Source: Fischerella muscicola PCC 7414
GTDB taxonomy: Bacteria > Cyanobacteriota > Cyanobacteriia > Cyanobacteriales > Nostocaceae
Direction: 5' to 3'
Assembly (NCBI RefSeq): GCF_000317205.1
Contig: NZ_AJLK01000028.1
Coordinates: forward strand, 1 to 48,515
Length of the DNA: 48,515 nucleotides
Below, piece by piece: positions 45,187-46,270 of this stretch. A program made the position numbers and the translations under genes. The notes below the pieces were generated by a model, which was given only the letters and a program-made list of their open reading frames with translations, was not told the origin of the DNA and searched no databases. Each line of letters starts with the position of its first letter. Within the stretch, counting starts at the first letter, position 1.

Positions 45187-45349
45187 GTAGTTGTCACACG
45201 CTACGAGGTGAATAAAATCACCGCGCAAGTTGAGAAAGCTGTTGGTTTATACACAGGAATCGAACCTGTTACCCATCGGTTAATAGCCGACTGCTCTACC
45301 AATTGAGCTAGTATGTAAGCTTTTTCTGTTAGGGCGCGGTGACAACTAC
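45187..45349 (-). ncRNA. Y-RNA-like RNA, copy A, with Asn-tRNA-like module
   Basis: Basal stem CACCGCGC / GCGCGGTG (45334-45341 with 45219-45226), and an extra outer stem GTAGTTGT / ACAACTAC. Then come the conserved 5' CCTAACAGAAAAAGCTTACATAC (conserved core AAAAGCTTACA) and 3' GCTTTCTCAACTT, the internal-loop/upper-stem elements shared by all copies. The insert (45246-45317) folds as a 72-base tRNA: D arm GCTC...GAGC, anticodon arm with loop CTATTAA (anticodon ATT, Asn-like), T arm ACAGG-TTCGATT-CCTGT. The acceptor stem is only about 5 of 7 paired, with CCA following. Copy nearest the Ro gene. Confidence 0.75.
45246..45317 (-). tRNA. tRNA-Asn-like module (anticodon ATT) within Y-RNA-like copy A
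   Basis: All four arms of a canonical tRNA are recognisable, with D-loop AATTGGTA and T-loop TTCGATT. The acceptor stem has two mismatches and the anticodon is ATT where tRNA-Asn normally has GTT. The flanks are those of the Y-RNA family, so I regard it as a tRNA mimic and not as a translation tRNA. A tRNA finder might well call it. Confidence 0.4.
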
Positions 45350-45405
45350 TGTTGTAACTGCAAGAAGACTAGATGTCAAATGCTACATTTAGACTTAGTA
45401 TAAAA

Positions 45406-45518
45406 TTGCCGCACAAGTTGAGGAAGCATAAGCCTGAAGACGGCTTCAGACGTAAGACTCTGTTTTTTAAGTTGTTTATATTAGGAGTGTGTAAGCTTCC
45501 TCGATGAGGGTACGGCAA
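45406..45518 (-). ncRNA. Y-RNA-like RNA, copy D, with hairpin module
   Basis: Basal stem TTGCCGTAC / GTGCGGCAA (9 bp, one wobble); conserved CCTCATCGAGGAAGCTTACA paired in its upper part with GCTTCCTC, followed by CAACTT. The insert is not tRNA-like: it contains a CTGAAG-CCGT-CTTCAG hairpin and AT-rich flanks. It lies between copies E and A, on the same strand. Confidence 0.65.
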
Positions 45519-45550
45519 AAATTATTCAAGAACATCATTAATATTTGATC

Positions 45551-45735
45551 ACCCATGCAAGTTTAAAAAGCTTTTTCCAACTTACGATCGCTCTTACCCG
45601 TTTGATTCTCGAGCAGTGGGCGTGCATTCCGCATCTGGCGTGAGATTAACAACGCTGTCACTAGATCGGTTGCCCGATTTTCGCTACCTTAGGATCGTTA
45701 TCACGTGTGTAGGCTTTTCAGGTTAGGACACGGGT
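45551..45735 (-). ncRNA. Y-RNA-like RNA, copy E, with long insert
   Basis: Basal stem ACCCGTGT / GCATGGGT (8 bp, two wobbles), then CCTAACCTGAAAAGCCTACA and, at the 3' side, AAAGCTTTTTAAACTT, matching the conserved elements. The insert of about 120 bases has a hairpin with GCAA tetraloop (ATCGG-GCAA-CCGAT) and the 16-mer TCCTAAGGTAGCGAAA, identical as far as I recall to a conserved part of 23S rRNA domain IV. The 185-base RNA is the longest copy. Confidence 0.6.
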
Positions 45736-45756
45736 TGAATTGTGAAATTTATAGGT

Positions 45757-45884
45757 CACTTCGCGCAAGTTGAAAAAGCCGTTTGTTCATACGTAGGATT
45801 TGAACCTACATTATCCTGAGTGGAAATCAAGTGCCTGTACCTATTCGGCTAGTATGTAAGCTTTTCCTGTGAGGGCGCGAAGTG
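45757..45884 (-). ncRNA. Y-RNA-like RNA, copy B, with tRNA-like module
   Basis: Basal stem CACTTCGCGC / GCGCGAAGTG (10 perfect pairs); conserved CCTCACAGGAAAAGCTTACA and GGCTTTTTCAACTT. The insert (45786-45858) has acceptor halves TACATAC / GTATGAA (5 of 7 paired), D arm GCC...GGC with the motif GCCGAATAGG, an anticodon arm with loop TTTCCAC and a perfect T arm GTAGG-TTCAAAT-CCTAC. The GCCGAAT D-loop fits what I remember of bacterial Y-RNA tRNA-like modules. Confidence 0.75.
45786..45858 (-). tRNA. tRNA-like module (loop anticodon TCC) within Y-RNA-like copy B
   Basis: A 73-base cloverleaf with a 3-bp D stem, 5-bp anticodon stem (one G-U), 5-base variable loop and perfect T arm. The acceptor stem is incomplete and no CCA follows. 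It is probably a mimic, given the Y-RNA-type flanks shared with the other copies. Confidence 0.35.
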
Positions 45885-45912
45885 GAATATTTAATCATTG
45901 GGAATAATCGTA

Positions 45913-46054
45913 TCCCGCATAAGTTGGTAAAGCCATGAACATTTTGCCTATACCAATTCGGCTACACCCCCATTAAGTGGAGGTGGTAGGGTTTGAACCT
46001 ACAAACTTCTTGCGAAGTTGAATGTATGTAAGCTTCACCTGTGAGGATGCGGGA
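45913..46054 (-). ncRNA. Y-RNA-like RNA, copy C, with circularly permuted tRNA-like module
   Basis: Basal stem TCCCGCAT / ATGCGGGA (8 perfect pairs); conserved CCTCACAGGTGAAGCTTACA and GGCTTTACCAACTT. The insert reads, 5' to 3': variable-arm hairpin AACTTC-GCAA-GAAGTT; T arm GTAGG-TTCAAAC-CCTAC; acceptor 3' strand CACCTCC; a 7-base loop; acceptor 5' strand GGGGGTG (7 of 7 paired, one G-U); then D arm GCCGAATTGG...GGC. The tRNA halves are in reverse order, joined at the acceptor end and opened at the anticodon, where the Y stem emerges. The copy begins 15 bases after the end of the 66-aa gene. Confidence 0.8.
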
Positions 46055-46069
46055 CAAAAACTTAATCCT

Positions 46070-46270
46070 TTATCCGTAAACTGCTTCTGGTCTTACGATT
46101 AAATCCCCACTTGGTCTACGGTCAATTATGTAAGATTCAAAGCGGTTTAGTTGCACATCAAAATGTTGTGCTAGTCGCTGTTTAATAATATTGTCATTCA
46201 TGTTAGCTGTTAAGCCTAGTTGTGACTCGCTAACATCATAAGAACGACCTTCAAAGCGAATATGAACCAT
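46070..46270 (-). CDS. small conserved-looking protein upstream of the Y-RNA array
   Basis: 66 aa, not recognised by name. [20 protein letters not shown], a helical [17 protein letters not shown] segment, and [21 protein letters not shown] could form a small beta-grasp-like fold (beta-beta-alpha-beta-beta); this is inference. A textbook GGAGG lies seven bases before the ATG, so it is surely translated. It is first in a minus-strand set: this gene, five Y-RNA-like genes, Ro. The tight spacing suggests co-transcription and a role with Ro/Y RNA. Confidence 0.85.

Follow-up and report, generated by a model that had tools for sequence, protein, structure and literature searches.

What does a cyanobacterium do with five different Y-RNA-like genes set beside a single gene for a Ro-like protein? 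The question is raised by a locus on the minus strand of contig NZ_AJLK01000028.1 of Fischerella muscicola PCC 7414, within a window of 48,515 nucleotides (positions 1 to 48,515, i.e., the whole stretch of DNA that was analysed). Our answer is that the locus is probably a translational-stress operon, producing a Ro ribonucleoprotein with exchangeable RNA adaptors that imitate tRNA and hot spots of the 50S ribosomal subunit. The modules of four of the five RNAs imitate such translation hot spots, namely tRNA (A and B), a permuted tRNA (C) and helices 69-70 of 23S rRNA (E), and a separate gene in the same genome combines a sarcin-ricin loop with the GTPase-associated centre in one RNA. The features are listed below in the order of transcription, with RNAs C, B, E, D and A running from 46058 to 45214 and R3 denoting a covariance model described in the next paragraph.

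46343-46372, minus strand: promoter (TTGACA, 18 nt, TAGTAT) with an overlapping tandem operator at 46361-46343
46070-46270, minus strand: small protein gene, 66 amino acids, a conserved open reading frame
45908-46058, minus strand: Y RNA C, R3 match, circularly permuted tRNA-like module
45754-45886, minus strand: Y RNA B, R3 match, tRNA-like module at 45785-45858
45547-45739, minus strand: Y RNA E, R3 match, 23S helix 69-70 mimic module at 45583-45716
45402-45521, minus strand: Y RNA D, R3 match, small hairpin module of no assigned kind
45214-45345, minus strand: Y RNA A, R3 match, tRNA-like module at 45244-45317
43542-44975, minus strand: Ro60-fold protein gene, 477 amino acids, alpha-solenoid plus vWA domain with a DxSxS motif

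A first-pass annotation of the sequence had placed five Y-RNA-like genes on the minus strand between a small protein and a Ro homologue, and had read them as adaptors through which that protein may reach several targets. The array is borne out by R3, the covariance model of an alignment (A7) of 30 cyanobacterial RNAs from other genera, none of them Fischerella, which recovers all five units at full length in a search of 63,749 bases (E-values of 1.2e-29 for A, 3.2e-27 for B, 1.5e-9 for C, 1.1e-8 for D and 1.7e-5 for E). When the 6.9-Mb genome is scanned with R3, 39 matches are obtained, full length only in the five array units (the weakest being E, with an E-value of 0.0018), and the remaining ones cover the tRNA part only. 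All five units possess a basal stem, an internal loop CCTNAN/AACTT and a second stem; the annotation had given the shared elements as CCTMAC and CAACTT, which holds for the common loop but not to the letter, E having AAAGCCTACA and AAACTT and D having CCTCAT. Similarly, the span 45187-46270 does contain the array but also takes in the small protein gene. A scan for this architecture over the window locus and 60 Ro loci (813,224 bases) yielded 177 matches, against 0 in shuffled sequence (one copy per locus, two-base blocks).

That the basal stems differ in sequence yet stay paired, as also proposed, is confirmed across genomes, since both sides have changed in 8 of the 10 basal-stem pairs of A7; basal stem and internal loop are thus conserved through covariation, and different effector modules sit on a covarying common stem. 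Over the whole A7 structure, two-sided changes affect 19 of 32 pairs, and the covariation score is reached by 0 of 500 shuffles, it being understood that the structures scored here and below (A7, the E-type alignment A6 and the sarcin-ricin alignment) were derived from those same alignments. Covariation was judged by five measures, one of which, “further pair types”, is reached by 369 of 500 shuffles for the sarcin-ricin alignment and is also weaker for A6 (19 of 500). Rfam, run on the window at the gathering cut-off and at E-values up to 5, reports the array RNAs above the cut-off only as tRNA, and the YrlA family (RF02553) has no match in the window up to an E-value of 5. The first reading is thus partly supported but was incomplete: all modules except that of D mimic either tRNA or 23S rRNA, and the set is defined by what its modules imitate. 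Nor did that reading take in the sarcin-ricin/GTPase-centre RNA encoded away from the array, the operator of TrcR type, the association with tRNA arrays or the copies in phages, all of which are described below.

A and B are tRNA-like cloverleaves according to both ARAGORN and Rfam (50.0 and 49.2 bits). In A7, the D, anticodon and T stems covary and all 30 RNAs have an unchanged T-loop core, GGTTC-A, and the tRNA modules of the relatives carry many different anticodons. It is scarcely credible that A and B are ordinary tRNA genes of a tRNA array that merely look like Y RNAs, even though ARAGORN labels them tRNA-Asn and tRNA-Gly and an ACCA follows the acceptor-like stem of A: the family keeps a covarying Ro-type stem around its modules, the cloverleaf arms are present but the acceptor stem is short and fused to the Y stem, no CCA end is conserved in A7, and a separate tRNA array exists elsewhere in the genome. 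By eye, small palindromic dispersed repeats are visible in the T loop of the tRNA-like modules of L097, L039, L047, L053, L072 and L074 (numbered loci being the best 80 of 288 relatives), seemingly inserted at about one common place each time.

The module of C has the order hairpin at the place of the anticodon arm (six-pair stem, GCAA loop), T arm, closed acceptor hairpin and D arm, which is a circular permutation of tRNA. Fischerella thermalis PCC 7521, a sister strain, has a copy of C with 16 differences from that of the window; among them, both partners have altered in two T-stem pairs and one acceptor-stem pair, which can still form. In this permutation with a closed acceptor loop, C resembles the YrlA-type Y RNAs (RF02553), as the array does more generally in consisting of small, Ro-linked RNAs whose basal stem bears an effector module resembling tRNA. 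Unlike YrlA, the window set comprises several kinds of modules, including pieces of 23S rRNA, and the permuted RNAs of the relatives score 31-42 bits against the RF02553 cut-off of 69 (best 41.7).

The E module contains ATAACGATCCTAAGGTAGCGAAA at 45679-45701, identical at 22 of 23 nt to the genome's own 23S rRNA, in a segment that we take to be helices 69 and 70 (H69-H70), and the 14-mer CTAAGGTAGCGAAA has two occurrences genome-wide, the 23S gene and E. The 21 E-type RNAs aligned in A6 share a 26-pair structure in which 12 pairs show two-sided change, with a covariation score reached by 0 of 500 shuffles. In its long-range helix, an ACGGUC strand pairs with a GGCCGU strand at the opposite end of the module, corresponding to the H69 stem in permuted order, and both sides have changed in all three of the pairs counted there. 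The profile of the rotated E module spans the junction and covers 40 nt of the own 23S (E-value 5.9e-8; best of 300 shuffles, 2), and that of the E-type 5' half matches the same rRNA at 2.4e-8 (best of 300 shuffles, 0.28). Model R1 was trained with the E of the window included, and its score on E is not independent. Module D is a small hairpin conserved in five close relatives (L094-L097 and L135). One further type of module, around TGCAAGCCTGAG...TAGCAGGC, occurs in one Y RNA of each of L035, L037, L069, L071, L084, L089 and L241, and its comparison with rRNA by eye gave no assignment.

A second rRNA mimic was found in relatives, where RNAs with the same Ro handle carry, ahead of the GTPase-associated centre, the sequence of the sarcin-ricin loop (in most of them AGUACGAGAGGA). 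The latter part is recognised by the large-subunit rRNA model of Rfam in L038 (52.6 bits, model positions 1077-1160, cut-off 50), and RNAalifold, given nothing but the alignment, arrives at the H43/H44 fold; two-sided changes affect 9 of 21 pairs. The own genome copy, found through an 11-mer, lies on a separate contig (G000:C113:11651-11793) and constitutes a sixth RNA, unlinked to the array; the sequence and fold of the GTPase-associated centre are thus present in the relatives and in this copy, outside the window. Scores of model R2, trained with the C113 copy included and hence not independent there, form two groups, at least 103 bits and about 58 or less, the lower of which presumably consists of 23S genes, as the own 23S does.

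The distribution of these RNAs was compared with that of Ro, using genome lists compiled by hand and a cut of 100 bits for the sarcin-ricin type. The order sample comprises 148 genomes, 55 with a Ro match and 43 with the sarcin-ricin/GTPase-centre RNA, which occurs in 42 of the 55 Ro-positive genomes versus 1 of the 93 others (Fisher p 3.5e-24, kinship ignored); the H69-type RNA occurs in 20 of the 55 versus 0 of the 93 (Fisher p 1.9e-10, kinship again ignored). In a phylum sample of 292 genomes, the sarcin-ricin/GTPase-centre RNA appears in five more genomes; when these and G014, the exception in the order, were searched for Ro, five of the six were positive, G203 having a broken frame. Y matches are present in 106 of 124 distinct Ro loci, with at least three in 76, at least five in 22 and a maximum of nine. 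E is missing in four close relatives that span its site (L094, L095, L097 and L135), yet E-type RNAs are found in other genera, and in this the modules behave as cassettes. Such coming and going is what would be expected if tRNA and rRNA fragments had recombined into Y-RNA genes without any function as mimics. This neutral capture is very improbable, as the stems covary within modules, the permuted C shows paired T- and acceptor-stem changes against its sister strain, and the rRNA modules turn up again in other genera and co-occur with Ro.

Deinococcus Rsr has a role in 23S maturation, and modules that copy parts of the functional centre of the 50S subunit might likewise serve ribosome quality control, by competing for 23S assembly or modification factors or by marking damaged 50S subunits for Ro-mediated decay. 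Under text rules that keep “merged” and “other” matches as separate classes (at least one of the “other” matches, L088_1, looks like chance), tRNA modules outnumber rRNA modules by 177 to 24 among 251, and we regard this explanation as improbable.

The Ro-like identity of the protein rests on its predicted fold. In the AlphaFold2 model (predicted local distance difference test, pLDDT, of 82.6), a fold search against the PDB returns Ro60, Rsr or TROVE structures exclusively at ranks 1-13 (E-values of 7.9e-12 to 2e-9; template modelling scores normalised on the query of 0.57-0.69), and the following matches, at 5.3e-5 or worse, are mostly vWA-type domains. The DxSxS, T and D columns, which we take to be the vWA metal site, are invariant in the protein alignment A1. 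NCBIfam gives no match for this reading frame, and the vWA_Ro60 model is matched by 1 of 22 aligned Ro proteins, at an E-value of 0.0029. The claim that a Ro gene directly follows the array therefore stands for a vWA gene (44975-43542) with a Ro fold but not for a TROVE family member: judging from the model, it is the fold that makes the protein Ro-like, family models giving no such assignment. In L091 (6205-8988), the Ro match is split in two parts inside a single open frame of 927 amino acids, a possible insertion or fusion. The small protein precedes Ro on the same strand in 108 of 140 loci, duplicates included. It is predicted to adopt a compact beta-beta-alpha-beta-beta fold (pLDDT 88.5), with no Pfam or NCBIfam match and no significant fold match in the PDB (best E-value 0.3).

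The regulation proposed here is suggested by the promoter (46372-46343), which overlaps, at its -10 region, the tandem TGTAGTAC-ATT-AGTAGTAT at 46361-46343; promoter-like sites as such are not in excess in the region (8, versus a shuffle mean of 7.1). Of 95 distinct loci, 27 carry the tandem motif in the 400 nt that precede the small protein (0.0 in shuffles), and 36 carry single exact copies (1.45 in shuffles). TrcR of Anabaena is a repressor whose targets include rtcB and a 26-tRNA operon, and TGTAGTAT, akin to the TrcR consensus, is located at the promoter of the trn operon (PMC10272220). Genome-wide, Fischerella muscicola has five tandem sites at no more than one mismatch and none of the reversed pattern; the pattern was written after seeing the window site, and only the other matches count as new. 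One of them lies at the promoter of the genome's own 16-tRNA array, another precedes an open reading frame resembling by eye a GNAT acetyltransferase, a class also listed in the Anabaena table (PMC10272220), and two have no assigned gene (C60, inside an open reading frame, and C125:61640, between two). The locus thus shares its type of operator, likewise found at the tRNA array, with the TrcR regulon of Anabaena PCC 7120 and its trn array, but no Ro gene is named in the Anabaena table of genes more than 8-fold up (PMC10272220).

The association with tRNA arrays extends to the relatives: at least eight tRNA genes on one strand lie near Ro in 22 of 124 loci, on the Ro strand and starting upstream in 21. 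On plasmid pA of Kovacikia minuta, a tRNA array, Y RNAs, Ro and a sarcin-ricin RNA are found on one strand within about 8 kb. A Y-like RNA inside the tRNA array itself was also seen on that plasmid (L241:4023-4156). In Chlorogloeopsis fritschii, erythromycin raises a TROVE gene, “for unknown reasons”, and an SPFH gene along with it (PMC6424891), and in another study RtcB is up together with a TROVE gene (PMC11423583); we assume these induced genes to be orthologues of the window Ro.

Relatives of this Ro with Y-like RNAs are also found in viruses. The uncultured 595-kb phage LR756511 encodes a Ro 50% identical to that of the window, the small protein (29% identity, E-value 6e-16) and several Y-like units, five of which have full-length R3 matches below 1e-5. 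One of its tRNA-like genes (L240:3798-3924, Rfam 50.6 bits) has, in the predicted fold, a Y stem with a closing GAAA loop inserted after the D arm and before the anticodon arm, i.e., the connection of copy C with the ends placed elsewhere. Further tRNA-like genes of this phage within L240:3798-4530 look alike by eye. A unit resembling E is suggestive only, with an E-value of 0.12 for the H69 model and the first rank, below threshold, for two half-profiles (0.011 and 0.054). All 12 viral contigs with a Ro relative, two of which (L250 and L251) are identical in sequence, have a full-length R3 match (best per contig, 7.5e-16 to 7.6e-8), on the opposite strand in L248, and 10 of the 12 have the small protein. 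The sarcin-ricin model gave nothing good on LR756511 and 11 of the 12 viral contigs (best E-value 0.34). Ro/TROVE proteins and tRNA-mimic RNAs of jumbo phages are already in print, including YrlA-like RNAs (PMC7824862, PMC7765460), and the loci described here are akin to them in this pairing; they differ in that the RNAs form an array accompanied by the same small protein, and in that one phage has tRNA-like genes into which a Y stem is inserted, as well as a possible H69 unit.

Taken together, we propose that inhibition of translation would release a TrcR-type repressor, and that the RNAs would then be made along with the tRNA-array regulon. The common stem and internal loop would form the Ro-binding end of each RNA, and the mimics displayed by the Ro ring would serve to decoy or dock proteins recognising the imitated spots, candidates being RNA-cleaving attackers of tRNA and of the 50S subunit or elongation factors. 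A decoy or docking role is suggested because the modules chosen are tRNA, H69, the sarcin-ricin loop and the GTPase centre. The main contacts of eEF2 with large-subunit rRNA are three, H69, H95 (the sarcin-ricin loop) and H43 (PMC9830224), RNase attack on H69 is described for another system (PMC13189344), and the decoy idea has been raised for YrlA (PMC7790460); the evidence fits factor docking as well as RNase decoying and does not separate them. In a bolder form of this proposal, to which we give slightly less than an even chance, Ro particles would carry a dismembered ribosomal A site (tRNA plus H69, the sarcin-ricin loop and the GTPase-associated centre, spread over several Y RNAs) that captures elongation factors or RNases when translation is blocked, as a kit common to cyanobacteria and huge phages, both weapon and shield in the contest over the control of translation.

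Alternatively, in the manner of YrlA and the Y RNA of Deinococcus, the modules may be handles that bring an exoribonuclease or RNA-processing or RNA-modifying enzymes to the Ro ring, the particle degrading or repairing structured RNA. Mimicry would then serve the binding of tRNA- or rRNA-modifying enzymes. The association of Deinococcus Rsr and Y RNA with PNPase (PMC7790460), the modification of YrlA as a substrate of DusA and TruB (PMC8394870), the joint rise of RtcB and a TROVE gene (PMC11423583) and the invariant T-loop core of A7 all agree with such a tether. By itself, it leaves unexplained both the joining of the sarcin-ricin loop to the GTPase-associated centre and the retention of tRNA modules with many anticodons, and we therefore find it doubtful. 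The Rsr/Y RNA/PNPase particle of Deinococcus radiodurans (RYPER) is comparable in that a Ro-fold protein is encoded beside Y RNA genes, but the RNA set of the window is larger and modular and its Ro too divergent for Pfam TROVE.

Several observations weigh against the translational-stress operon. The E model scores only 11.7 bits (E-value 0.44) on the own 23S; for the 3' half of E, a 23S origin was tried and the profile search with that half alone detected no 23S similarity; and E is absent from the four close relatives named above. D remains without assignment, a comparison with rRNA by eye having given none, and one basal-stem pair is broken in the sister copy of C (L094). Among the three loci searched with the Rfam large-subunit model, L083 scores 46.7, just under the cut-off of 50, and L047 gives no match. 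Pfam TROVE is absent from the matches of the 22 aligned Ro proteins as well as from those of the window reading frame. As to co-occurrence, 13 of the 55 Ro-positive genomes lack the sarcin-ricin type and 35 the H69 type, G014 carries the former without a Ro match (G014:C32:40532-40673), the sole such genome in the order sample, and 18 of 124 Ro loci have no Y match at all. The tandem operator is not found within 400 nt in 68 of 95 upstream regions. Fischerella belongs to the branching filamentous cyanobacteria. TrcR has been reported missing from that group (PMC10272220). Finally, the case for this locus is built on sequence, fold and co-occurrence, from which expression and binding are inferred.

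Both tRNA-mimicking Y RNAs and the Ro/TROVE proteins of jumbo phages have been described before (PMC7790460, PMC8394870, PMC7824862, PMC7765460). No account of Ro-linked Y RNAs bearing rRNA modules turned up in the literature searched, whose coverage did not include the main Y RNA papers, and priority is not settled. The rsr-yrlBA-rtcBA RNA repair operon of Salmonella is similar in combining a Ro protein with tRNA-mimic RNAs, and it is controlled by tRNA damage (PMC7790460), which is comparable to the control by translational stress that we propose; it differs in that the window operator is TrcR-like and no rtcBA was seen among the neighbours scanned, the remaining window not having been searched for it. 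If our reading is true, rRNA-mimic Y RNAs would provide a direct handle on what Ro ribonucleoproteins do in bacteria, as well as small natural models of the GTPase centre, and would link Ro to a known translational-stress regulon, suggesting a layer of defence or counter-defence common to cyanobacteria and huge phages. Elsewhere in the window, a long CRISPR (clustered regularly interspaced short palindromic repeats) array extends from 36243 to 42248, with 83 DR5 repeat matches in Rfam.

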